This document shows positions 5,350 through 29,486 of a DNA stretch of 34,910 nt, piece after piece. Each line of letters begins with the position of its first letter. The first letter of the stretch is position 1. The notes under the pieces were generated by a model. It had not been told where the DNA came from. It ran no database searches and saw only the letters and a program-made list of their open reading frames with translations. The position numbers were made by a program, and so were the translations under genes. The DNA is from an uncultured Lachnospiraceae bacterium (lineage in GTDB: Bacteria; Bacillota; Clostridia; Lachnospirales; Lachnospiraceae): NCBI GenBank assembly GCA_947384285.1, contig CANDGI010000035.1, positions 1-34,910 of the forward strand, in the 5' to 3' direction.

Positions 5350-6450
5350 CTAAGCGTCAAAGCTGACTGGCAGTTCCACCGTAAATACCGTCCTTTCCTG
5401 GCAGCTCTCTGCCCAGATATTCCCGCCATGCAGCCTGACGATTTCCTTTGCAATGGCAAGCCCCAGCCCAGCACCTCCATTCTTGCTCTGCCTTGCGCTG
5501 TCCAGCCGGAAAAACTGTTCAAAGATACGCCCAAGCTTTTCTTGCGGGATGGCAGCGCCCTGGTTCTCTACCTGGATACGCACCATTTTCCCTGCCAGTG
5601 ATGCCCGGATTTCCACCTTTGCGCCTTCGTAACTGTAAAGCGCTGCATTCCGCAGCAGATTGTCAAATACACGCTGTATTTTATCCGGGTCACAGGTAAT
5701 CTTCAAATCAGGGGGCTCTACGGATAATCCACAGGACAAATTTTTTTCCAAAAACACAGGATGAAACTCAAACACTGTCTGCTCCAACATCATTTTCAAA
5801 GAAATCCTGGAGGTTTCCAGCTCCAGATGGGTTAGGTTAAACCTGGTGATTTCAAAAAATTCGTTGATTAAATCTTCCAGCCGCTCCGCCTTTTCCAACG
5901 AAATGGACAGGTATTTTTCCTGCAGCCTGGCGGAAATCCCACACTCTTCCTTTAACAGGGTAAGATACCCAATAACAGAGGTCAAAGGCGTTTTCAAATC
6001 ATGGGCAAGATATACAATCAAATCATTTTTCCGCTGTTCCGCCTCCCTGGCTCTCTGCTCATTGCGTTCCTTCTGCCGCTTCAGCTCATTCATATACTGC
6101 TCCACTTCCTGCAGCTGGGGCCGAAGCTGAATCAGCTCCTCCTTATCATTGAGTTTTTCCATAGCCGCCAGCACTTCCTGGAAATAATTCAAAAGCTTTA
6201 TCCAGTAAAAAATACCGATTGCCACAAGGCCTGCCAGGAACATGAAGCATACAAAAAGACCCTGGTTATCTGAAATCCAGTGAATCATAGGATACAGCCC
6301 TTCATTCCCATACCAGATATAGGAGCCAAGAATTGTTTTTCCCAGAAAAAGGCAAGCCACAAGACCCATCATACAGACCGCAGCCGCCCTAAGCATCTTT
6401 CTAAAAAACCGATGCAGAATAATTGTTTTGATATACTTTCTATCGTTCAA
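5350..6450 (-). CDS. VanS-like sensor histidine kinase
   Basis: About 366 aa from the TTG at 6448-6450, chosen because it overlaps the stop of the regulator gene by 11 bases and follows GGGGAG; the longer open frame upstream is antisense-like text over the regulator. Two transmembrane helices (~residues 18-40 and ~64-86) flank a short extracellular loop, then a coiled linker, a dimerisation domain with phospho-accepting His150 (YLAHDLKTPL) and an HATPase domain with N box (DNLLRNA), FEQFFR and GAGLGLA. No HAMP is obvious. Pairs with the OmpR-type regulator immediately upstream. VanS-family kinases answer to cell-wall-active compounds or other envelope signals; the target here is unknown since no exporter or van gene is nearby. 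Confidence 0.9.
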   Translation of the reverse strand: MNDRKYIKTIILHRFFRKMLRAAAVCMMGLVACLFLGKTILGSYIWYGNEGLYPMIHWISDNQGLFVCFMFLAGLVAIGIFYWIKLLNYFQEVLAAMEKLNDKEELIQLRPQLQEVEQYMNELKRQKERNEQRAREAEQRKNDLIVYLAHDLKTPLTSVIGYLTLLKEECGISARLQEKYLSISLEKAERLEDLINEFFEITRFNLTHLELETSRISLKMMLEQTVFEFHPVFLEKNLSCGLSVEPPDLKITCDPDKIQRVFDNLLRNAALYSYEGAKVEIRASLAGKMVRIQVENQGAAIPQEKLGRIFEQFFRLDSARQSKNGGAGLGLAIAKEIVRLHGGNIWAESCQERTVFTVELPVSFDA

Positions 6451-7153
6451 TGGTATAACCAACTCCCCAGACCGTTTTAATAAATTTTTGATTGCGGTAA
6501 GAATCCCGCATCTTCTCACGGATACGGCCAATATGAGCCATGACGGTGTTATTGTTATCCAGATATTTTTCCTTCCATACCGCTTCAAACAATTCCTCCG
6601 AGGATACTACCTGCCCCTGGTGGCTGCAAAGATACCACAAAATCGAAAATTCCCTGGGCGTTAGTTCCAATTCCTTGCCAAACAAAGCACTCTGGTGGGT
6701 GCGGCGGTTCATCCACAGCCCGCGGATTTCCAGTTCTTCCTCCGGCCAGCTTCCCAGCCCATCCTTTCCCTGCATTCCTTTGCTGTTGTAACTGCGGTAT
6801 CTGCGAAGCTGGGTTTTTACCCGGGCAACCACTTCCAGGGGATTGAAGGGCTTCGTAATATAATCATCTGCCCCCAGCATAAGGCCATTAATCTTATCCA
6901 CATCCTCCACTCTAGCCGTCAGCATGATAATGGGAAAATAATGCTCCTTGCGGATCATCTGGCAGATTTTAAACCCATCCACATCCGGCAGCATCACGTC
7001 CAGAAGCGCCAGATCTATCTGTTCCCGCTCCACACATTCATATGCTTCTTTTCCCCCATAAAATTTAAACACCCGATACCCTTCATTTGCCAAATACAAT
7101 TCCAGCAAATCCGCCACTTCCCTCTCATCGTCCACCACCAGTATACGCTCCAA
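6440..7153 (-). CDS. VanR-like OmpR-family response regulator
   Basis: 237 aa from TTG at 7151-7153, placed directly before the receiver domain (ERILVVDDE) and after GGAGGCGGGAGAGG. Receiver: acidic pair Asp8/Asp9, phosphorylated Asp52 (LLDVMLPD), Thr79 and Lys101 (KPF). C-terminal winged helix with LTPREFSILWYLCSHQGQVVS and the end TVWGVGYTIER typical of OmpR/VanR proteins. First gene of a two-gene transcript with the kinase (11-base overlap). It is separated from hydF by 148 bp containing a 10-bp inverted repeat, so it may have its own promoter and bind there. Confidence 0.92.
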   Translation of the reverse strand: MERILVVDDEREVADLLELYLANEGYRVFKFYGGKEAYECVEREQIDLALLDVMLPDVDGFKICQMIRKEHYFPIIMLTARVEDVDKINGLMLGADDYITKPFNPLEVVARVKTQLRRYRSYNSKGMQGKDGLGSWPEEELEIRGLWMNRRTHQSALFGKELELTPREFSILWYLCSHQGQVVSSEELFEAVWKEKYLDNNNTVMAHIGRIREKMRDSYRNQKFIKTVWGVGYTIER

Positions 7154-7232
7154 GCCTCTCCCGCCTCCTCTGAAAAAATATTTTTTATAGATTCCAAGCC
7201 GCATTTCCCCCATCAGAAACCACCCTGGCACT

Positions 7233-7297
7233 GCAACGAACAATCAATATTTCAATACACAGGAAAAGGCAGGATCCAAATATAAAATGTTCGTTGC
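7233..7297. repeat. 10-bp perfect inverted repeat between hydF and the VanR-like gene
   Basis: GCAACGAACA (7233-7242) and TGTTCGTTGC (7288-7297), 45 bp apart. It starts five bases downstream of the hydF stop and extends into the regulator's upstream region. It could be paired operator sites or a long-loop 3' structure for hydF. There is no T-run on either strand. Confidence 0.5.
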
Positions 7298-7301
7298 GGT
7301 A

Positions 7302-8561
7302 CTAAATCGTATTTGAAAAGCCATTCCCAGGAAGCTCCTCTAAAACCTCAGGAAATAATTCCACACTCCGCCGCAGAATCCCCTTCATATAGGCAATCGC
7401 AATGCCATAATTTGTCATAGGTATCCCCTGATTCCTGGCACATTTCTGCCGGTATTTCATTTCACGTTCGTTGAGCATGCAGCCGCCGCAGTGAATCACC
7501 AGCTTAAACCCTGACAAATCCTCTGGAAATTCTGTCCCGGAAGTAAGCTCTATCCGAAGGCTTTTCCCCGTATATTCTTTCAGCCAACGGGGCAGCTTCA
7601 CGGAACCAATATCACCGCATTGGCGGTGGTGGGTACAGCCCTCGGAAATCAGTATCTTATCTCCATCCTGCAAAGCTTCTATGGCGGCTGCCCCTGCCAC
7701 TGCCATCCGCAAACTGCCCTTGTACCGGGCAAACAAAATTGAAAATGAGGTAAGGGGAATTTCTTTCGGGGTAACAGCGCTGACTTTTCCAAACACCTGG
7801 CTGTCTGTAATCATCATAGCCGGCTTCCTGCCCAGCTGCTGCAGCATTTCTTCTAATTCATTGTCTTTTACCACAACTGCTGCGGCGTCCGCATCCAGGA
7901 TATCCCGGATGGCCTGCTGCTGAGGAAGAATCAGCCTGCCTTTTGGCGCCGCCTTATCGATGGGAACCACCAAAACCACAAAATCCCCAGGCTGCAGCAA
8001 ATCTCCTGCAAGCCGCCTGGATGGTCCGCCATGAGCTGCAAGCCCGGCAATTTTTTCCTTTAATTCCTCTATCTGGAAGCCTGTCCGAGCACTGACAAAA
8101 ATGCATCTTTCCCGATAGGCTTGAAGCTTTTCGTCTTTTTGCACCTTCGCAGTTTCCTCTTTTTCCAGCAAATCCGTTTTATTTAAAGCAATCACAAAAG
8201 GAATTTCCTTTTCCTCAAACAGGCCAATCAGCTCCTGCTCTGCTTCTGCCATCCCTTGCGCTGCCTCTATCACCAAAACTGCTGCATCTGTCTGATTCAA
8301 AATCTGCCTGGTCTTTTTGACCCGCAATTCTCCCAGCGCTCCCTCGTCATCAATCCCAGGCGTATCAACAATCACCACAGGCCCTAACGGCAGCAGCTCC
8401 ATGGCTTTTTTCACCGGATCGGTGGTAGTTCCTTTCACTTCGGACACCACCGCAAGCTCCTGGCCTGTGACGGCATTTACCACACTGGATTTCCCCGCAT
8501 TTCTTCTTCCAAAAAAACCAATATGGACACGTTCTCCTGACGGTGTATGATTCAAACTCAC
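7302..8561 (-). CDS. hydF: [FeFe]-hydrogenase maturation GTPase HydF
   Basis: 419 aa from GTG at 8559-8561 (after AAAGGAGAAACACT; the frame is open further but without a site). HydF is the scaffold that carries the 2Fe subcluster made by HydE and HydG and inserts it into apo-hydrogenase. GTPase domain: P-loop GRRNAGKSS (18-26), G2 Thr in KGTTTD, DTPG (66-69), NKTD (127-130). Then the dimerisation domain, then the cluster domain with C309-x-H311 and HC358-x2-C361, matching the family's CxH...HCxxC signature with 46 residues between. The TM1266-like regulator is just upstream. hydE and hydG are not in this window. Confidence 0.95.
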   Translation of the reverse strand: MSLNHTPSGERVHIGFFGRRNAGKSSVVNAVTGQELAVVSEVKGTTTDPVKKAMELLPLGPVVIVDTPGIDDEGALGELRVKKTRQILNQTDAAVLVIEAAQGMAEAEQELIGLFEEKEIPFVIALNKTDLLEKEETAKVQKDEKLQAYRERCIFVSARTGFQIEELKEKIAGLAAHGGPSRRLAGDLLQPGDFVVLVVPIDKAAPKGRLILPQQQAIRDILDADAAAVVVKDNELEEMLQQLGRKPAMMITDSQVFGKVSAVTPKEIPLTSFSILFARYKGSLRMAVAGAAAIEALQDGDKILISEGCTHHRQCGDIGSVKLPRWLKEYTGKSLRIELTSGTEFPEDLSGFKLVIHCGGCMLNEREMKYRQKCARNQGIPMTNYGIAIAYMKGILRRSVELFPEVLEELPGNGFSNTI

Positions 8562-8619
8562 AGTGTTTCTCCTTTCATTTTTCAAATGCTGTCTGGATAC
8601 CCGCAAAAATGCAGAATCC

Positions 8620-8871
8620 CTACACTTTGGAATATGCCGCTTTGCTGCTGATTCCTTTCAGCTTCCCTAATTTCCCGGAAAGGGCGCTGATGGTATCCTG
8701 GGGGGCGTCCACCGCAATGCTGATAATATTAATGCCTTTTTTCGGATAGGGAATCCCCATCCTGCCGATAATGCAGGAACCATATTCATGAAGAATCTGG
8801 TTCAATGCTTCCACTGAGGATTCTTCTTCCACGATAATGCCGATAATGGCTACTCTTGATTCCATTTCCAT
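8620..8871 (-). CDS. TM1266-type iron-only hydrogenase system regulator
   Basis: 83 aa, ATG 8871 after AAGGAAGG. A single ferredoxin-like/ACT-type domain of the TM1266 family (putative iron-only hydrogenase system regulator), similar in fold to the C-terminal part of NikR: first strand RVAIIGIIVEEESSVEALNQIL, then YGSCIIGRMGIPY and INIISIAVDAPQDTISALSGKLGKLKG. The family is regularly encoded beside hydE, hydF or hydG; here it is 58 bp upstream of hydF on the same strand, so co-transcription is likely. Ligand and DNA binding are not shown by the sequence. Confidence 0.9.
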   Translation of the reverse strand: MEMESRVAIIGIIVEEESSVEALNQILHEYGSCIIGRMGIPYPKKGINIISIAVDAPQDTISALSGKLGKLKGISSKAAYSKV

Positions 8872-19681: not shown

Positions 19682-21112
19682 ATGAAATTAAAACCATATA
19701 TTTCCAAACTGATTTACTTTCAAAAATACCGCATTCTCCTGATTTTCCTTGTGGGAACCGCTGTCTTAACCGTGGTGTCCAGGGCGGCAGATTCCTTTAT
19801 GGTGCCCCAGGTATCCATTGCATCCCCAGAGGAAATGAAGCTGAAATATCCCCTGGAAATCGAGGGCCGTATTGTGCCAAAAAGGAGCCGCGCGGTCTAC
19901 TGCCAGGAAAATCTGCGGATTGCCCATGTAAATGTGCAGACAGATGATATTGTGAAAAAAGGAGACCTGCTTTTCTCCATTGATTCCGAACACCTGCAGG
20001 CTGCTATCCAGCAGACAGCGCAGGAAATGCAAAAGATCGACCTGCAAATCAAGGATTTGGAGCAATCCTGGCACAGCCAAAGCAGACAGCATACGTTGGC
20101 GCAAAACCGCGCAAAAGAAGATTATGCCGATATCTCCAATGCTTCCGAAGCTTCCGTAACCGCCGCTTATCAGGAATGGGAACAGGCAAAAAATGAGCTG
20201 GCGCTCCACGACAGCCGAAAACCCATCCGCTTGGAAACGGAACACCCTCAAAATGAACCTGCACTCCGGGATATCTCAAACTCCGATGCGTCCCAAGAAG
20301 ACCCAATGGACGCATGGGCGCAAAAACGGGCAGAATTGGAACAGCTCTGCCAGGAAAAAGAAAAACAGTACCAAGACGCCCTCGCCGCCAAACATAATGA
20401 TTTAAAAACTGCTGCCCGCCAGATAGAGGATGCCAGCCAGCCTTTGGCAAAGGATCATTCCGCCGCCCTTTTACAAATAGAAAAAGCAGACCTTGCCCGG
20501 ACTTTGGAAGAATTGCAAAAGCTCAGCCAGGCAGGCGGCAGCATCTATTCGGAGTATGACGGCCTGATCCTGGAATGCTCCATTTCCACGGGAAGCCTGG
20601 CTTCCTCTGAACCAGTAATCATCCTGGGGGATTTTAGCCAGCCGTTCCAATTTGAAGGCATGGTAAGCGACGCCGGGGAACTTCCCATTGAAACGGGAAC
20701 AGAGGGCACACTCAAAATGCAGAAGGATGCCGCAATGCTGGAGCATGTAAAAATTACCAGCATTTCCCGGGAAGAAGAAAAGCTCCGAATTACTGCCGCC
20801 CTGGATTCCTATGAGATTTCAGCAGCCCAGGAAGCCGTTTTCGATGTGGCAAAGGAAAGCAGGACATATCCCTGCTGCATCCCTTTATCCTCTTTGTACA
20901 GCCGAAAGTCCGGTGACTTTGTCATAAAAATCCAGGAAACCTCCACAATCCTCGGCAGGCAGGCAACTGCGGAATACGTGCCTGTCACCTGTTTAGAGAA
21001 AAATGGAAAGTATGCCGCAGTGGAAGGAAACCTTTCCTCCCAGGACTTCATCATCGTAGATGCAAGCAAAACCGTAAAGGAAGGGGACCATGTACGAATT
21101 GCCGAAGAATAG
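19682..21112 (+). CDS. HlyD-family membrane fusion (adaptor) protein
   Basis: 476 aa, ATG 19682 with a weak AGAGGCG site. One N-terminal transmembrane helix (~residues 18-35), a first lipoyl half (IEGRIVPKRSRAVYCQENLRIAHVNVQTDDIVKKGDLLF), a long charged coiled coil (~100-285), the second lipoyl half (YDGLILECSISTGSLASSEPV) and a beta-barrel C-terminus ending VKEGDHVRI. Such adaptors normally partner an ABC exporter of the MacB or peptidase-containing type, none of which is here. Placement behind MalF/MalG-type permeases is unusual. Confidence 0.85.
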   Translation: MKLKPYISKLIYFQKYRILLIFLVGTAVLTVVSRAADSFMVPQVSIASPEEMKLKYPLEIEGRIVPKRSRAVYCQENLRIAHVNVQTDDIVKKGDLLFSIDSEHLQAAIQQTAQEMQKIDLQIKDLEQSWHSQSRQHTLAQNRAKEDYADISNASEASVTAAYQEWEQAKNELALHDSRKPIRLETEHPQNEPALRDISNSDASQEDPMDAWAQKRAELEQLCQEKEKQYQDALAAKHNDLKTAARQIEDASQPLAKDHSAALLQIEKADLARTLEELQKLSQAGGSIYSEYDGLILECSISTGSLASSEPVIILGDFSQPFQFEGMVSDAGELPIETGTEGTLKMQKDAAMLEHVKITSISREEEKLRITAALDSYEISAAQEAVFDVAKESRTYPCCIPLSSLYSRKSGDFVIKIQETSTILGRQATAEYVPVTCLEKNGKYAAVEGNLSSQDFIIVDASKTVKEGDHVRIAEE

Positions 21113-21122
21113 GAGGATACCT

Positions 21123-22016
21123 ATGAACCACAAAAAAATAACCGCTCACAAAACCTGCCGGTATTTCAGGCTGCTTTTCTTTGGCCTCCTGTTCCTCTTT
21201 AGTTTTTCCAGATTCTATATTCATTTCAAAGAATTTAATGATTTGGATGAAAGCTTTACCTGCCTGTTTTACTCGGAACCATCCTCCGCCCAAGGACTGG
21301 CAGAAGAATGCCTGGCGCAGGGAATAGACTGCGAAACTTTAATCTCCAGCCAGGGGGAATGCCTGGCGCAGGGAATAGACTGCGAAACTTTAATCTCCAG
21401 CCAGGGGGAACGCCTGGCGCAGGGAATAGACTGTGAGACTTTAATCTCCGGCCAGGGAGAAGACCTGCAATGGGAAGAGCTGTCCCATGCCAGTGCTGCT
21501 GCGTACAAGCTGCCAGCCAGCCCACACTGCCCGCTTGCCGGCTCCATGGCTGTCTCCATCGTCCGGGGAATGAAAACCTTAGACTACCGTAAGACAGAAC
21601 ATTTATTCCAAAACAGCGATGTGAGAATCGATATTGTTTTGTTGAAATGGCTGGTTTATCTCATTGCATCTTTCCTTTTCCTGGGAATCCTGGCGCTTTT
21701 TTTTGCATATTCCAAAAAATTCCGCAAAACCAGATGGACATACTTTTTTGGCCTGTCTCTTTTTCTATGTTATATGAAGCTTGAAATATTTGCCGATACA
21801 GCAAGATTCCCTGTCTGGGCGCTGCCAGGAAAATGGTCTGATTTGGAAGGCTTTGGAGCCTTGTGGGAGAATCTTTTGGCACAGTTGTCTGCCATTTCCC
21901 ATTTTCGGGATTACCCGATTCTGTGCAGATATTATCAGGGACTGGCCGGATGCCCCTTTTATCTCGTTTTTTGTTTTCTTTCATTTTGGGCGTTCTTAAA
22001 GAACGCCCTTCCATAG
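21123..22016 (+). CDS. Membrane protein with Cys-containing tandem repeat, unknown
   Basis: 297 aa from ATG 21123 after AGGAGGATACCT, 10 bp behind the adaptor gene. Helix 1 at ~residues 13-32, then an extracytoplasmic loop of ~130 residues with three 17-residue repeats (CLAQGIDCETLISSQGE), each with two Cys six residues apart, then three more helices (~184-206, ~215-235, ~275-292). The last codons form a perfect hairpin. Last gene of the operon. I do not recognise the family; operon position suggests a membrane partner of the adaptor or importer. The repeat copy number is likely to vary between strains. Confidence 0.75.
   Translation: MNHKKITAHKTCRYFRLLFFGLLFLFSFSRFYIHFKEFNDLDESFTCLFYSEPSSAQGLAEECLAQGIDCETLISSQGECLAQGIDCETLISSQGERLAQGIDCETLISGQGEDLQWEELSHASAAAYKLPASPHCPLAGSMAVSIVRGMKTLDYRKTEHLFQNSDVRIDIVLLKWLVYLIASFLFLGILALFFAYSKKFRKTRWTYFFGLSLFLCYMKLEIFADTARFPVWALPGKWSDLEGFGALWENLLAQLSAISHFRDYPILCRYYQGLAGCPFYLVFCFLSFWAFLKNALP
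21306..21458 (+). repeat. 51-bp coding minisatellite, three units
   Basis: Units at 21306-21356, 21357-21407 and 21408-21458; the first two are identical over nearly all 51 bases and the third has a few substitutions. The period is a multiple of three, so units can be gained or lost without a frameshift. Confidence 0.95.
21988..22008. terminator. Perfect hairpin at the operon end
   Basis: GGGCGTTCT-TAA-AGAACGCCC lies inside the last codons of the membrane-protein gene, in the 32-bp space before the convergent kinase stop. No T-run follows on either strand, so termination efficiency is uncertain. Confidence 0.5.
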
Positions 22017-22048
22017 CAAGAGCCTGCAGCCAAAGGCACAAATCCACC

Positions 22049-24547
22049 TTATTGCAGTAAAGACGATTGCCGCAGAATGCTTTTCAAGATGCTGGTATCA
22101 ATCACAAATTCCGGCGTTCCCATATTGCCTGGGGCAACCTCATACTCTTCAAACATAATCACAAGCTTGTTCTGCTCGTTAATATAAAAATCCTGATCTC
22201 TATCAATTTCCTTAAAGCAATAACTCTCCTGCCAGATGCCGCCCGACACATAATACTGTGTCTCGCCATCCTTCATCTGCTCCCTCATCTGCCGCAGAAT
22301 ATCTTTACTGATAAGGCTGCGGTAATCGCTGCCCTCGCAAAACAAATCACTTAACCCTAAAATTTTTCCCTTTTTCTTATCCAGTACGAAATTACGCGCG
22401 TACTGCCCCGATCCCCCCGCATTGATGGTGCAGAAAAATTGTACCACAAGCATATCGGCATCATTCCGAAGAATGTTATAATCTATGTCTGCGCCCACAT
22501 GCCCGTTATATTTCCGGGAAACATACCATCTAAACTTACTTCTCATTCCATTAATATAGTCCTCTATCTGGTTCTCTAATTCTGCCACAACCAGATCGCC
22601 TGCATCTTCCACATTCTCCATTAAGCTGTCCAGGGACGGCTCGTCAATATCCATTGGTTCATCTATGGAAGAGCTGCTGTCCTGGTTCCCATCACCGCCA
22701 GAGGTTTCTTCCTTCCAATCGCTATTGGTTTTTGAAGGCTTTTTGCTGCCACTGCTTTGCGGAAGTTTCCCCCATACCGTGTCCCCAGCTTCCACAGCCT
22801 GTTCCTCTGCTGCATTGCCGTCTCCTGAGACATCTTCTTTTCCAGCCCCGCCATATGCCTGGTTCTTCTTTTCCGCAGCCTCATTGCCTGGCGAAGCTTC
22901 TTCTTGAACCTCATCATATGCCCGAACCGCCTTTTCTGCAGGCTTATTACCTGCCAAAACTTCTTTCTGGGCTCCATCCTCCTCCGTCTTATTTTCCTTT
23001 CCGCCGCTGTCTGCTGTAAATACAGGATATTCCGCTTGAAAAACGTTGTCTCCCCATCCTGTAACCATAGACTGTTTCCCCGCTTCCCAGACAGGTATTT
23101 CCCTGCTGCCGTATTCTTCAAACGCCTGTGCCGCCACAAATGTACAGACGAGCAAAACAAAAAATGCAATTGCGGAAACGGGAATGGGAGAGATAGGCTT
23201 TTTCCAAAAGTTTTCCTGCTTTCTGCTGTCTGGCAGCTGTAATGTCTGAGCGCAGAACAGCGCCGCATGAAGCCGGAATTCTCCCTCGCTGCATTCGCAG
23301 TTGAGGAAACCGTTATATTTATCGGTAACCGCATGAATGCTTTTCAGCCCGACTCCATGCCCTTTTTCTACTGGCACATCTGGATATCCATCCTTATCAA
23401 AAGAAATATCTTCCTCACAGGAATTTTCAACGGAAATAAGTAAATTCCTCTGTTCCTGGAACCTCACTAAAACACGTATGTAACGTTTCGTTTTCTCGTT
23501 TATTTTCCGGCAGGCATTCACCGCATTTTCTATAGCGTTCGCCAGCGCCATGCAGACATCTATAGCGTCATAAGGAATGTCCTCTGGAATATCAATTCTT
23601 GCAAAAACGTCGCAACCCTCATCCTTCGCGCGTCCAATAGCGGAAGACAGCACGGCATTTACCGCAATGTTTTCACAATAGACCTTCCTTTCTGTCTGGG
23701 AAAGCCTTCCTCTCATATTTTCAAGATAGCCAAGAATGTTTTCCATCTCCCCTTGTCTGGCCAGTTCTTCCAATGCCGAAAGATGGTGGCGCATATCATG
23801 CCGGTAAATCCTTCCCGCTTCTATTTTTTTGCAAATGTCTTCGTACTCCCGCCGCTGCATCTGCATCCTGAATTCCACCGCTTTTTCTGTCTCCTTCATC
23901 CTGGCAACGGCTGCCGACGATGCCAGAAGCTTTGCAATGGCCAAAAGCAGCGACAAGGCCGTTAAAAACAGTAAAAACCATACGGTAAAGTCCATAGAAC
24001 TGTTTTTAAAATAAGAAAACAGGATTAATATCATTAAGATTGGAAAGAAAATAGGCAGCCAGTTTGTCCGGTTTTCTTTCACATAAACATGAAAGGGCTT
24101 GTAAAGAAACCGGAAAACCAGAAACACAAGCAGCACTGCCACGGACAGCCCAGCGGCTGCCAGCAATAACTCACGCTTCAATCCAAAAATATGGTTCCCA
24201 AAATACAAAAAAAACATAGTATTCAGGATTTTCAGCGTAAATGCAGACAGAATCCCCACCGCCAAAGCCGCCGTCGTCTGTAGAAAATTATACCAGGAGA
24301 GAACATACAGCCCGGCTGCAGCTGGCAGATAAGCAGTAATCGGCAGCATTGTAAGGATAAACATAATATCCTGCCCTGATAGGAAAAGCGCCGCCTGTAT
24401 CATTGCAATCAACGCTAAAATACCTCCTGCCGCAAACAAGCGCATTTTCTTTGAAAACCGCAGTTCTGTCAGCCCTGCGCAGATTGCAGTGTATGATAAA
24501 AAAATAATCGCTTCCGAAAAAATTGTTCCAATTATAATAAAATTCAT
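22049..24547 (-). CDS. GHKL histidine kinase fused to extracellular DUF3298 (RsiV-like) domain
   Basis: 832 aa, ATG 24547 after GGAGAACAGGAAGG. Six helices in residues ~1-210, then an AgrC-type kinase: phospho-acceptor region RHDMRHHL (His250), N box NAIENAVNA (337-345) and GHGVGLKSI (396-404). AgrC proteins end about here (~430 aa). This one continues with an extra helix (455-475), a Glu/Ala/Gly-rich disordered linker (~480-650) and a folded domain (~660-832) with GKILGLSDLF and the C-terminal INEQNKLVIMFEEYEVAPG...PEFVIDTS of DUF3298, the ligand-binding domain of the anti-sigma factor RsiV. Predicted topology puts it outside the cell. No LytTR regulator is adjacent. Confidence 0.85.
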   Translation of the reverse strand: MNFIIIGTIFSEAIIFLSYTAICAGLTELRFSKKMRLFAAGGILALIAMIQAALFLSGQDIMFILTMLPITAYLPAAAGLYVLSWYNFLQTTAALAVGILSAFTLKILNTMFFLYFGNHIFGLKRELLLAAAGLSVAVLLVFLVFRFLYKPFHVYVKENRTNWLPIFFPILMILILFSYFKNSSMDFTVWFLLFLTALSLLLAIAKLLASSAAVARMKETEKAVEFRMQMQRREYEDICKKIEAGRIYRHDMRHHLSALEELARQGEMENILGYLENMRGRLSQTERKVYCENIAVNAVLSSAIGRAKDEGCDVFARIDIPEDIPYDAIDVCMALANAIENAVNACRKINEKTKRYIRVLVRFQEQRNLLISVENSCEEDISFDKDGYPDVPVEKGHGVGLKSIHAVTDKYNGFLNCECSEGEFRLHAALFCAQTLQLPDSRKQENFWKKPISPIPVSAIAFFVLLVCTFVAAQAFEEYGSREIPVWEAGKQSMVTGWGDNVFQAEYPVFTADSGGKENKTEEDGAQKEVLAGNKPAEKAVRAYDEVQEEASPGNEAAEKKNQAYGGAGKEDVSGDGNAAEEQAVEAGDTVWGKLPQSSGSKKPSKTNSDWKEETSGGDGNQDSSSSIDEPMDIDEPSLDSLMENVEDAGDLVVAELENQIEDYINGMRSKFRWYVSRKYNGHVGADIDYNILRNDADMLVVQFFCTINAGGSGQYARNFVLDKKKGKILGLSDLFCEGSDYRSLISKDILRQMREQMKDGETQYYVSGGIWQESYCFKEIDRDQDFYINEQNKLVIMFEEYEVAPGNMGTPEFVIDTSILKSILRQSSLLQ

Positions 24548-24608: not shown

Positions 24609-24716
24609 GATACCGCTTCCTCCCTAAGGTAATGCCTCCTCGCTCTCTGGCTCAGCGGCAGGCCGCCGGAAGGCACTGAATCATGCCTCCCATTCCTTTT
24701 CCTCCTGCAAAAATTC

Positions 24717-24745
24717 TTGCTATTTTATTGGCGGGATACTATAAT
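24717..24745 (+). promoter_or_regulatory. Promoter of the macro/TPR operon
   Basis: TTGCTA (24717-24722), 17-bp spacer, TATAAT (24740-24745), 35 bp before the macro gene start. The 109 bp between this and the divergent kinase promoter show only a short GC-rich imperfect stem near 24655-24675. Confidence 0.7.
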
Positions 24746-24780
24746 AAATATTATAACAAAAGAGGGAGCGAATAAGCAAT

Positions 24781-26151
24781 ATGGGGAAACAACTTAAGAA
24801 TATCAGCAGAATGTTTGCATTCATTGAGGGGGACATTGCAGACAAATCTTTTCTGGCAGATTACGGCATTGACACCATTGTGAATGCAGCAAATCCTACG
24901 CTGAGAAAAAGTGAAAAAAATTACGTAAAACCAGGCGTCAGCCTTTCCATCCATCTTGCCATTGACACACTGAAGAACGAAGAAGGATACTTTGAGAAAA
25001 AAATCATCGAGGAAAGGGAAACAGAAGATAAAAAAAATGAAATCCGCTGTCCCAGAGGACAGGCCGTCTTAACAAAAGGATATGGCCTTTGCGAACGCAT
25101 CATACATGTGGTTGGAGCAGAATATGACGGAACCTTCAAAAAGAAGCCGGAACCTTGTTCCAGTTCCAGAATTTCAACCCTGGAATCCTGTTATTATGAA
25201 ATCGTAAAAACGATAAAGCAGCACGCTGAAATCAAATCTCTCGCTATCCCCATAATTGGTGCCGGCAACTATAGATTTCCATTTGAATTTGCTGCACGCA
25301 TTGCCATGGCTTCCATGGTAAACGCATTCATTGAATGGCAAATCCAAGATCCGGAAATATTTGAAATCATAGATATCCCCAAAATATATTTTGTAATTTA
25401 TGATGCAGAGAAACATGTGCAAAAGGAACATCTCGCCTGCATCCATGACATATGGCAGAAGGAATACAAACTGCTGGCTCAGGAAAACCAAAGAATCGTT
25501 TATCAAAAATCCCTGGATTCCCACCGCAGCTACATAAAAGAAATCAAGGCATATGATGAGACAAGAGGATACTTTTCTGTTGCCCGCAAAATCCGCCTGG
25601 CTTTGATGTATGTCCGCTACGCCTTTTTTCCTTTCATGCGCCTTAAAGATGCCTTCGGAAAAAACAACTGGAAAAAGCGGCGGCAGTCGGTAGAACTCCT
25701 GGCAATTGCCAAAATATTCCTGCCGCTTCTCCTCTGGCGTTTTGTATCACTATGCCAAACCGCAGAAGTCCCATGCCTTGTAATCAGATGTTCTAGAATA
25801 TTGGTCGTTTACAGCATGAGCGATACGATTACATATTTGCTGATCTTAATTATTATGGCAGATATCCAACGCCCTTCTGCCAACCTGATACGTTCCATGC
25901 TGATGCTTTTTGTCAATTACATCGAAGTTGCTTTGGACCTTACATTTTTATATTGGTCCGTTTACCAGAACAGCATCTGTTTCGGTGATGCGCTGCTATT
26001 CGGCATGCTGGGACAATCCCAGATAAAGGAAATGACAACCATGTGCGATTATCTCTGGCCGCACCTGAATGCCAGCGTACAATTTTTCTTTTTAACCCTT
26101 GTGTTCGGCTACCTGGCAAACCATATGCAGCAAAAAAAATTTATAAGCTAA
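24781..26151 (+). CDS. Macro-domain protein with C-terminal membrane region
   Basis: 456 aa, ATG after GAGGGAG. Residues ~12-205 are a macro domain, a fold that binds ADP-ribose and relatives: FIEGDI, DTIVNAANP (31-39), PGVSLSIH (51-58), RGQAVLTKGYGL, RIIHVVGA and LAIPIIGAGNYRFP. The glycine-rich loop is PGVS rather than the usual GGGVA. A helical, basic linker (~230-300) leads to four hydrophobic helices (~305-325, ~340-362, ~375-397, ~430-448). Macro domains joined to membrane helices are known effectors of NAD-derived signals (type II Thoeris), though no TIR gene is here. The TPR/DUF2971 gene begins 17 bp downstream. Confidence 0.85.
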   Translation: MGKQLKNISRMFAFIEGDIADKSFLADYGIDTIVNAANPTLRKSEKNYVKPGVSLSIHLAIDTLKNEEGYFEKKIIEERETEDKKNEIRCPRGQAVLTKGYGLCERIIHVVGAEYDGTFKKKPEPCSSSRISTLESCYYEIVKTIKQHAEIKSLAIPIIGAGNYRFPFEFAARIAMASMVNAFIEWQIQDPEIFEIIDIPKIYFVIYDAEKHVQKEHLACIHDIWQKEYKLLAQENQRIVYQKSLDSHRSYIKEIKAYDETRGYFSVARKIRLALMYVRYAFFPFMRLKDAFGKNNWKKRRQSVELLAIAKIFLPLLLWRFVSLCQTAEVPCLVIRCSRILVVYSMSDTITYLLILIIMADIQRPSANLIRSMLMLFVNYIEVALDLTFLYWSVYQNSICFGDALLFGMLGQSQIKEMTTMCDYLWPHLNASVQFFFLTLVFGYLANHMQQKKFIS

Positions 26152-26168
26152 AAAAGGGGGAGCTGACA

Positions 26169-29100
26169 ATGATTAATTTTTTTCAAGTCACAAAAGACAC
26201 AACAGAAGCAGGCATTATATGTTTCCTGAAAAATGTTTTTAATGAAACAGAAAACATACATGACCCGTACGGCGCACAGCAAGACATCCTGGATGCAAAA
26301 GGAAAACAGGAGCGATACAAAAATCTTTTGGATCGCACAGAGCGAAACTGGAATTCATGGCTGGAACAGAAAGAACACGAAGCAGAGCCGTCTTCTTACC
26401 CAGCCGAAAAACTCCACGACGTGGTATTGTCCAACCTTTATCTAAGGAATGGGCAATGTGAAGAGCAGAAATTCCACAATACATCCGAAAGCTACAAAAA
26501 AGCCCTGGAATTGCTGCGGAAACATAGGCCGCCAGAGAAAAACAGCATAGAAGGCACAAACGGCGAAGATACTCTCCTAAATCTTCTAATTCACCTGAAC
26601 CTTGGGAAATACATGCGCAATATGAGCTATTTTGAAAGCCGGAGCCGCTTTTCCTTGGCAAGCCATGAGTTCGAGAAAGTCAAATATTTCCTGGAGAAAG
26701 AAGAAAGCTTCCATGACCAGAACCACATGCAGATCTGGCTGGAGGCAATAACCAACATCGGAAAATGCCAGAAAAACCGCTATGAACTAAAAGAATCAAA
26801 ATCCACATTCCAGGGAGTGGTAAGCGGCCTTCTGCCATGGATAAGCGCCAGCAAAAAAAATATTTTTGAGCAAAAGCATCTGAAACTAAGCCTGTCAGAG
26901 CCTTGCGAAACGGAAAAAGCAATTTATGCGCACCTAAAGAATGAAAAACAGTTGTCCGACCTGTTTTTCATACGCGCGCTCATACAGCTTGCCATTGTAT
27001 ACCGGAAACAGCGGGATTATGAGACAGCCAAAGCTATATGTGAAATCGTGAAAGCCATGGAGCCGGAAAATACGGACGCAATCAATAACCTTGGCGTGTG
27101 CTACAGGAAAAAAGGAAACTTAAAAGAAGCAATTGACTGTTTTAAGCCTCTAATGGAAAGAGGAAACCGTTTTGCAAGAATTAATTACTGGAAATGCGTC
27201 CTGCGCCAGGAAGAATCTCCCCAGGAAAAAGGAGATGCATCAAAAGAAGAAATCCAAAAATTCCTAGAACAGGATAAACCAAACTGGGCATACGAGCTGC
27301 TCCAGGCGCAAAATGAGCAAGACTGGGAACACAGGCTCATCCAGGCGCGCTTCCTGCAATTTCAAAAAGACTTGAAAATGGCTTATGCCATATTTGAAAA
27401 ACTTTACGAAAAATATCCCTTTATCCACTATGGAACCATCGGCTTAAAAGCATACTACAATATGGCCGCCTGCCTGATGCAGGAAGGAAAATACCAACAG
27501 GCAAAGAGCATTCTGGACGAAATTTTAAATACCTGCCCAAGTGACAGGCTTGCCAAGATTGACAAAGGCTGGTGCCTCATGCAGGCGAACCAATACAAGG
27601 CTGCAAAGGATTTATACCTTGATGTTATGAACCTTCCCCAAAACTGGGCAGACAGCGCCAGCAAAATGCCAGACCATACCGGCACAGCAGCAGGCAATGC
27701 CAGCAAAACGCCAGACCCCATCCAAAACTGGAAAGATAGCTGCAGCTTAAGCACCTATGAACAGGTAAAGCAGCTGAACAACCTTGGGGAGTGCTATCTG
27801 CGTATCGGCGATATCCAAAAAGCTTCCATCCTGTTTCAACGGGTATTGGATGAAGAATCAGATAATATTGAAGCTTTAAATTTTAAGGCGCAGTGCCTCA
27901 TGCAGGAGGGAGAACAACTGGAAAAAGAGGAAAAATATGATGATGCAGCAGAAAAATACAACAAGGCCATCACTTCCCTGGAAGATGCCATCTTAAGAAG
28001 GGAACACGTAGACCCGGACAGGAAGGAAAGACTTCCCCTGATTTCCCATCTGATTATTGCCAAGGCAGCTTATGTACAAGCTGTAAACAGAAAAAACGCG
28101 CCCCTTTTGAACCCTGAAGGGCAGCCGGCAGGAACCCTCATATCCAAAGATTACCTGGAATACTACCTGCTATACTATCCTGACGCAAGCTGCTCCCAAA
28201 AAGCCTGCTGTGAATTTGCAGAATTTCTATTAGGCAGCGACCACAGCAATTCTGGGAGCCCTGACCAGGAAGCCCTGAACCGTTACCGGGCATTTTCACG
28301 CATCCAGCTGTGGAAAAAAGAAGAGGGCTGTGAAAAATTTTCGCATTTTATAAAGTCCCCGGAATTTATGAGCACCGGAGCCAGCAAGCGCGGAAAAATC
28401 CTGGCATGGCTGTTCCTGATTTACCGGGATGTCCGGAAGATAAAGGAGACATGCCGGTATTCCCCAAAAGCTGCCTGCCATGAGATATTGATTCCTGCAC
28501 ACTACACCACCTTAAACACATTGAAAAAGCTTGCAGCTGAGGAAAATGCATACCTGCGCCTGTGGAACAGCGTATACATGAATGACCCCAATGAAGGCTC
28601 CTGCTTCTTAGAGCTGCTGAAGGCAACATGCAACAACCTGCCGGAACAGGAAAACGCGGATACCGCCTTATCCAAATATTTCCCACACTTGAACAACACC
28701 AAGGAAAACCTGTCCCCGACCAACAGCAATGTGTACATAACCAGCTTCTGCCGGGAAAAGGACGACCTTCAGATGTGGCGGCTTTATGGGGATGATGCAA
28801 AGGGCTGCAGCCTTGTTTTTGCCGATGATTTTTTCGACATCCGAAGCCGGATAGAAGGACCGTTAGATTTGACAGAATATTCCGACCATGACTACCCGCT
28901 GTATGAAGTCCAATACATTGATGAAGAAAAATTGATGAAAGACGGAGAAATTAAAATTGTTTCCAGTAAGAAAACAGAAACAAACAGAAGCAGCCAAATC
29001 AGCGAAAACAGAACCCTGCAGATGGATGAAACTAAGGCTGAGCAGATAAAAAAACATCTGGAAAGCATCTGGAAGCATATCACCAACCTGCAAAACTGGA

Positions 29101-29435
29101 TGACAGAAAAGAAACAAGAAATAAAACCTAACAGCGCGGCAGCAGTAACTGCTTTTTTGGCAGATGCCTTGAACGAAATCCGCTTTCTTTTTAAATACTC
29201 TTATTTTGAAAAAGAAGAAGAGCTGCGCCTGGTACAGTTCTCCTACCATCCCAAATTCGAGAATGAGGCATTTCCCATTCCAAGAATGTATATCAACGTA
29301 GAGAGGGAAATCCAGCTTAAGGAGGTTATGCTCGGCACAAAAATCAAAGCCCAGAGAAAAGATGAGATCGTCTCCTGGCTCTATGCCACAGGCAAGGTAG
29401 AAAAGGTGACAGAATCACAGAAACACTATAAATAG
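26169..29435 (+). CDS. TPR-repeat protein with C-terminal DUF2971 domain
   Basis: 1088 aa from ATG 26169 after GGGGGAGCTGACA. No signal peptide or membrane helix. TPR-like helical pairs fill most of the first ~700 residues, clearest at AINNLGVCYRKKGNLKEAID, YNMAACLMQEGKYQQAKSIL and LNNLGECYLRIGDIQKASIL. Residues ~765-1085 are a DUF2971 domain: HYTTLNTLKKL and YLRLWNSVYMNDPNEG, then VYITSFCREKDDLQMWRLYG and DAKGCSLVF, ending in a conserved-looking LKEVMLGTK strand. The opening H-Y-T with a later NDP-E recalls ADP-ribosyltransferase-like folds, an inference. TPR sensor plus effector domain and pairing with a macro protein suggest a conflict system. Confidence 0.82.
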   Translation: MINFFQVTKDTTEAGIICFLKNVFNETENIHDPYGAQQDILDAKGKQERYKNLLDRTERNWNSWLEQKEHEAEPSSYPAEKLHDVVLSNLYLRNGQCEEQKFHNTSESYKKALELLRKHRPPEKNSIEGTNGEDTLLNLLIHLNLGKYMRNMSYFESRSRFSLASHEFEKVKYFLEKEESFHDQNHMQIWLEAITNIGKCQKNRYELKESKSTFQGVVSGLLPWISASKKNIFEQKHLKLSLSEPCETEKAIYAHLKNEKQLSDLFFIRALIQLAIVYRKQRDYETAKAICEIVKAMEPENTDAINNLGVCYRKKGNLKEAIDCFKPLMERGNRFARINYWKCVLRQEESPQEKGDASKEEIQKFLEQDKPNWAYELLQAQNEQDWEHRLIQARFLQFQKDLKMAYAIFEKLYEKYPFIHYGTIGLKAYYNMAACLMQEGKYQQAKSILDEILNTCPSDRLAKIDKGWCLMQANQYKAAKDLYLDVMNLPQNWADSASKMPDHTGTAAGNASKTPDPIQNWKDSCSLSTYEQVKQLNNLGECYLRIGDIQKASILFQRVLDEESDNIEALNFKAQCLMQEGEQLEKEEKYDDAAEKYNKAITSLEDAILRREHVDPDRKERLPLISHLIIAKAAYVQAVNRKNAPLLNPEGQPAGTLISKDYLEYYLLYYPDASCSQKACCEFAEFLLGSDHSNSGSPDQEALNRYRAFSRIQLWKKEEGCEKFSHFIKSPEFMSTGASKRGKILAWLFLIYRDVRKIKETCRYSPKAACHEILIPAHYTTLNTLKKLAAEENAYLRLWNSVYMNDPNEGSCFLELLKATCNNLPEQENADTALSKYFPHLNNTKENLSPTNSNVYITSFCREKDDLQMWRLYGDDAKGCSLVFADDFFDIRSRIEGPLDLTEYSDHDYPLYEVQYIDEEKLMKDGEIKIVSSKKTETNRSSQISENRTLQMDETKAEQIKKHLESIWKHITNLQNWMTEKKQEIKPNSAAAVTAFLADALNEIRFLFKYSYFEKEEELRLVQFSYHPKFENEAFPIPRMYINVEREIQLKEVMLGTKIKAQRKDEIVSWLYATGKVEKVTESQKHYK

Positions 29436-29446
29436 GGAAACCCCAG

Positions 29447-29486
29447 CACAGGCAGCAGTTTATGAAAAACCGCCGCCTGTGTTTTA
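29447..29486 (+). terminator. Terminator of the macro/TPR operon
   Basis: CACAGGC (29447-29453) pairs with GCCTGTG (29475-29481), with extra GC pairs inside, followed by TTTTATT. It begins 12 bp after the stop codon. Confidence 0.8.

Follow-up and report, generated by a model that had tools for sequence, protein, structure and literature searches.

Two adjacent genes of an uncultured Lachnospiraceae bacterium, encoding a macro domain joined to a membrane part and a TPR protein ending in DUF2971, are the subject of this analysis. They lie in a window of 34,910 nucleotides (contig CANDGI010000035.1, assembly GCA_947384285.1), the whole stretch of DNA that was analysed. The source is a 3.2-Mb draft genome, estimated to be 83% complete, and Lachnospiraceae bacterium 3-1 is the nearest of the named relatives that were found. 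The DUF2971 domain is predicted to have an ADP-ribosyltransferase (ART) fold, an identification at the level of the family that would be more important than the locus itself.

The two genes and their products

The macro-membrane gene (24781-26151, 456 aa) and the TPR-DUF2971 gene (26169-29435, 1088 aa) are open reading frames (ORFs) of the + strand with a spacing of 17 bp (26152-26168), the two-gene layout that an initial annotation had described. The start of the second gene is the ATG at 26169, with the ribosome-binding site GGGGGAG (26156-26162) ending six bases upstream; the longest possible ORF opens with a GTG at 26043. An intrinsic terminator hairpin at 29445-29483 on the + strand is followed by T-rich sequence (z -4.5; as stable in 0 of 200 shuffles). 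Ahead of the first gene, also on the + strand, is a sigma-70-like promoter match at 24717-24745 (TTGCTA-17-TATAAT), which is a consensus match only. As the region holds 12 such matches against 9.1 +/- 2.7 in shuffles, not clearly above chance, a single promoter for both genes is only plausible.

Macro PF01661 matches residues 34-175 of the first protein (24880-25305; E 3.8e-15). The C-terminal half is hydrophobic, with about three membrane segments predicted by hydropathy at about residues 306-390 (25696-25950), and together these results bear out the macro domain joined to membrane helices that had been recognised by eye. The Asp of the GGGVD loop is the catalytic residue of MacroD-type hydrolases. 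Where most macro relatives read GGGVDGAIH, the window protein reads PGVSLSIH and that of a sister species PSVNLSVH, which places Ser54 and an Asn, respectively, in the Asp column of GGGVDG. When aligned with macro proteins from viruses and from relatives (28 besides the sister), the window domain is without a GGGVD(G)-type loop and its catalytic Asp. Because the stretch is replaced, with Ser54 in the Asp column, MacroD-type hydrolysis appears unlikely, and a binding role is favoured as far as sequence can indicate.

A search of 299 genomes of the family gave no convincing relative of the membrane tail. Four weak matches besides the window were obtained (E 5.9e-4 to 0.0099), the best of them in a frame of 31 aa and two with stops. 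A PDB sequence search with the tail gave chance-level ammonium channels only (best E 1.4). A pore-domain reading, based by eye on the look of a two-helix channel, was rejected, the tail having no Pfam channel match.

The second protein matches TPR families (about residues 267-607, 26967-27989; best E 1.4e-21) and ends in DUF2971 (about residues 777-1088, 28497-29432). PF11185 scores 20.4 bits on the whole protein, where the cut-off is 22, and 25.3 bits in the search of its own genome, in which this is the sole DUF2971 found; phrog_1762 matches the domain at E 5.5e-15. By these matches the C-terminal domain belongs to DUF2971 (PF11185 / phrog_1762), and the TPR protein ending in DUF2971 of the initial annotation is confirmed. 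Residues H778, N805, D806, E809, D865, W870 and Y873 are present, as are G879, Y916, K1009, E1016, E1018 and R1020. The His, Tyr and ExE, near-invariant in DUF2971 alignments, are kept in the window, and the domain has in this respect the same residues as the family (DUF2971 / PDC-S31 / phrog_1762). It differs from most fetched relatives, which are single-domain proteins of ~230-340 aa, in its fusion to TPRs. The same fusion occurs in L003, L093 and L096 (by reading or alignment), while fusion to Sel1 repeats is found in L136 (Pfam) and its relative L241. L093 is a full-length homologue of the window protein (31.5% over 1104 aligned positions, E 1e-122) and L096 also matches it, in two stretches.

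Predicted fold and spread of DUF2971

The catalytic motifs of ARTs are classed by H-Y-E or related residues. In fold searches with two predicted models, the DUF2971 part resembles ARTs, with DarT as the best match of the compact model, and an ART fold is predicted on this basis; the resemblance to ARTs suggested at the outset was thus recovered. No DarT family matched the TPR-DUF2971 protein among the best 25 of 29 Pfam matches or among those from NCBIfam or PADLOC, and hhalign of DUF2971 with DarT gave under 1% over a thin alignment. PDB sequence searches with DUF2971 profiles gave none for A4 and one weak ribosomal protein for A2 (E 0.03). The domain differs from DarT in this lack of a listed family sequence match and in its TPR fusion. 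From Tpt1/KptA (PF01885), likewise without a listed sequence match, DUF2971 differs in a long helical insertion and in its signature of ND..E / W..Y / ExExR.

Among open papers, one names DUF2971 (PMC5552945). No published statement of an ART fold for it was found in the open literature, most subscription journals and preprints lying outside that coverage, and neither PF11185 nor PDC-S31 was found by name in open-access papers. The family is common yet of no assigned function: its profile matches 61 of 397 genomes of the family and 17 of 391 of the class, the two draws having three genomes in common, and 43 viral loci carry it. A scan with profile A2 confirmed nothing.

By its company, DUF2971 looks like a conflict gene in many places, because it occurs as prophage cargo, in a restriction-modification neighbourhood and in an E. 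coli element bearing TIR and SIR2 genes, and because PADLOC has a model for the family, the candidate PDC-S31 (the best model in 33 of 37 rows). In viral contigs the gene is carried as cargo (annotation by reading). Six podovirus-like contigs (L139, L148, L153, L156, L171, L175) have it between a portal-like gene and the next head-block gene, a site seen from one side in L168 (upstream only) and L160 (downstream only). Elsewhere it adjoins integrase-like genes (L145, L147, L155) or tail-type genes (L149, L151, L165, L176), and in a satellite phage it stands at the end. The chromosomal locus L044 places it beside an AspBHI N-terminal restriction family gene, an AAA ATPase and methylase- and Vsr-like genes. 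A copy is present in 20 of 5426 E. coli genomes; for L156 no E. coli match was found. The DUF2971 part of the window protein is matched in three streptococcal plasmids; the L136 domain has no plasmid matches.

Readings of the pair

From the two genes and their domains, the predicted ART fold, the kept conserved residues and the spread of the family, all obtained by computation, we infer an enzymatic activity with a target, a sensing part, ADP-ribose binding and joint action of both proteins. The TPR array would detect a trigger or hold the C-terminal enzyme inactive. The DUF2971 part would use NAD+ to place ADP-ribose onto a nucleic-acid or protein target, and the membrane macro protein would bind free ADP-ribose or the ADP-ribosylated product, as immunity or as effector. 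This reading, a DarT/Tpt1-like ART (most likely a conflict enzyme that uses NAD+) behind a TPR array with a membrane macro protein as its ADP-ribose-binding partner, is given slightly less than even odds (a probability of roughly 0.45).

The macro gene is under constraint in both the macro part (dN 0.21, dS 1.03) and the membrane tail (dN 0.15, dS 0.82), with dN/dS near 0.2 by NG86 over the parts aligned to the sister species (G023). The sister holds the one close relative of the macro-membrane protein in 145 genomes (the source genome included), other rows matching the macro domain only. The membrane half alone matches the source genome and G023 only among 29 genus genomes, and a contig scan with the macro-membrane protein confirmed only the sister locus KE159571.1. 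The sister gene lies at the same chromosomal place, with MgtC, AsnA and aminotransferase genes on one side and a transporter block on the other, but it is broken into two open pieces. DNA alignment gives two blocks (window 24711-25459 and 25854-26152), with ~395 bp missing in the sister, and no part of the TPR-DUF2971 gene aligns at that locus. Damage to the macro gene at a locus lacking the enzyme gene is consistent with a partner left without a function; one case proves little.

Genome searches gave >80 other DUF2971 places, of which 43 neighbourhoods were fetched, mostly the best-scoring, with flanks of ~8 kb or less where a contig ended. All 43 hold DUF2971, and a macro profile made from 31 rows (threshold E 0.01) found a macro domain in 0 of them. 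A macro domain was likewise found in 0 of 43 viral loci (417 ORFs), of which L161 and L166 duplicate others; here the flanks were at most 8 kb in L136 and at most 4 kb elsewhere. At E 1e-3 the TPR-DUF2971 protein has matches in 10 of 145 genomes (that of the window among them), and in four of these the match is to TPRs only. No macro gene was found beside L093 or L096, and since such solitary relatives exist, the macro gene is not required by TPR-DUF2971 genes. L096 sits between biosynthetic genes, in contrast to the conflict-type settings. The near flanks of the window locus hold ABC transporter parts, a GHKL kinase, MgtC, AsnA and an aminotransferase. A defence island, which the initial annotation had proposed to look for, was not found among the ten flanking proteins scanned, with the far left hardly covered. 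In viral contigs and phages no full-length TPR-DUF2971 protein was found, and in viral contigs no macro-membrane protein; plasmids gave macro parts only (8 plasmids).

The pair was first put forward as a candidate two-gene conflict system, and rare co-occurrence had been named among the observations that would refute it. Rare co-occurrence is what was found. As the genes occur together only in the window among the loci examined, a conserved macro-membrane plus TPR-DUF2971 system is rejected; the support that remains lies in the conflict-type settings of DUF2971 genes in several places. Fifteen other genomes of the genus have MgtC, and beside it neither of the two genes was observed. This survey lends weak support to an orthologous empty site, because AsnA adjoins MgtC in only 5 of the 15 and four contigs (L209, L212, L217, L220) end close by, L220 holding almost nothing on the side of interest.

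It is rather unlikely, on balance, that the genes are chance neighbours, with the TPR-DUF2971 protein as a stand-alone defence or cargo enzyme behind an unrelated macro gene, perhaps on a common transcript but in no common pathway. The zero counts of macro genes at the other chromosomal and viral DUF2971 loci agree with such an arrangement, as do the macro remnant without a DUF2971 gene in the sister and the varied surroundings of MgtC across the genus. It sits less well with the shared strand, the 17-bp gap and a terminator only after the second gene, with two halves that both belong by fold to ADP-ribose biology, or with the internal deletion of the macro gene in the sister, which lacks the enzyme gene there, a decay that would follow if the macro gene no longer had a use.

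Two special cases are improbable, and about equally so. In the Thoeris-like one, which overlaps the preferred reading, DUF2971 would make an ADP-ribose-derived signal that the macro-membrane protein would read, then cluster and damage the membrane. According to PMC11204291, the TM-macro ThsA of type II Thoeris binds ADPR and IAD and hydrolysed none of the tested substrates, and clustering in the membrane has been proposed for it; the macro domain of EcThsA comprises residues 62-278. The window protein likewise joins a membrane part to a macro domain that lacks the MacroD aspartate, and both probably only bind. The likeness to type II Thoeris drawn in the initial annotation survives in this outline and does not extend further. 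The domain order is opposite, macro N-terminal and membrane part C-terminal in the window and the reverse in ThsA, and PF20016 scores 14.7 bits, below the cut-off of 25. A TIR gene was looked for in the window without success, both in Pfam scans of the ten flanking proteins, including both direct neighbours, and among its ORFs with the L136 TIR as a single-sequence query. DarT-type ARTs modify targets and are not known to make a diffusible signal.

The other special case is a strict toxin-antitoxin pair like DarTG, whose upstream macro protein would hydrolyse ADP-ribose off the enzyme's target. DarT as the best match of the compact model, a macro gene directly upstream of an ART-fold gene and a sister with a damaged macro gene and no toxin-like gene all point in this direction. 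However, the macro domain is MacroD-like without the GGGVD stretch and its Asp (Ser54; Asn in the sister), and its DarG score is far below the cut-off (12 of 250 bits in NCBIfam), the PADLOC DarG match (E 0.005) spanning 40 residues only. Its membrane anchoring is unlike DarG, solitary TPR-DUF2971 genes occur, and the pairing is without conservation. DarG itself uses a lysine instead of the MacroD Asp (PMC9967889).

Returning to the ART with its membrane-bound reader, the locus would be a new arrangement of ART and macro conflict genes, a pairing seen only in the window. A broader and more tentative proposal is that DUF2971 is a large undescribed DarT-like ART family, carried as cargo by prophages, phage satellites and islands, either as a lone domain or with TPR or Sel1 sensors in front of it. 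The enzyme in the window would have recruited a membrane-anchored, non-hydrolytic ADP-ribose reader, giving a conflict system distinct from DarTG and Thoeris. Were DUF2971 a DarT-like ART, its genes in prophages and islands would acquire a testable activity, modification of DNA, RNA or protein in an NAD+-dependent way, and phage defence based on ARTs would extend well beyond DarTG. The window offers a natural test case, in which a predicted ART enzyme adjoins a putative ADP-ribose-type binding protein in the membrane.

Other settings and local surroundings

The position between portal and head-block genes recurs as a place for cargo within a structural operon. The Mu-like contig L136 (IMGVR_UViG_2823217464_000003, 5552-8750) has a cassette among phage structural genes, made up of a TIR gene (PF13676, E 5e-19), a 178-aa gene without a Pfam match and the Sel1-DUF2971 gene; by reading, no TIR gene stands beside the Sel1-DUF2971 gene of L241. 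The one E. coli genome inspected (GmF046, L239:9025-18409) has a MobQ relaxase and DUF2971, with a Thoeris-like TIR and SIR2 pair ~6.5 kb away. In L094 (8553-13578), a DUF2971 gene of 769 aa lies directly beside Hsp70-like and GrpE-like genes on the same strand.

Near the window locus, the spot that separates the macro gene from the transporter operon is variable, because its gene content differs between the sister species. In the window this stretch (21090-24547) has a GHKL kinase gene, and in the sister (L041:12525-14747) it has AbrB-like/PIN-like and ArsR-like genes (by reading). The window gene at 21090-22016 is shorter than its homologue (308 vs 375 aa). In the sister (L041:13600-15755), the transporter-operon gene and the macro-membrane remnant share similar ends, LANHMYQRNFI and LANHMHQRKFIS. 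In one of the 15 other genus genomes with MgtC (G009, L206), a putative DNA methylase gene (by reading) lies beside MgtC.
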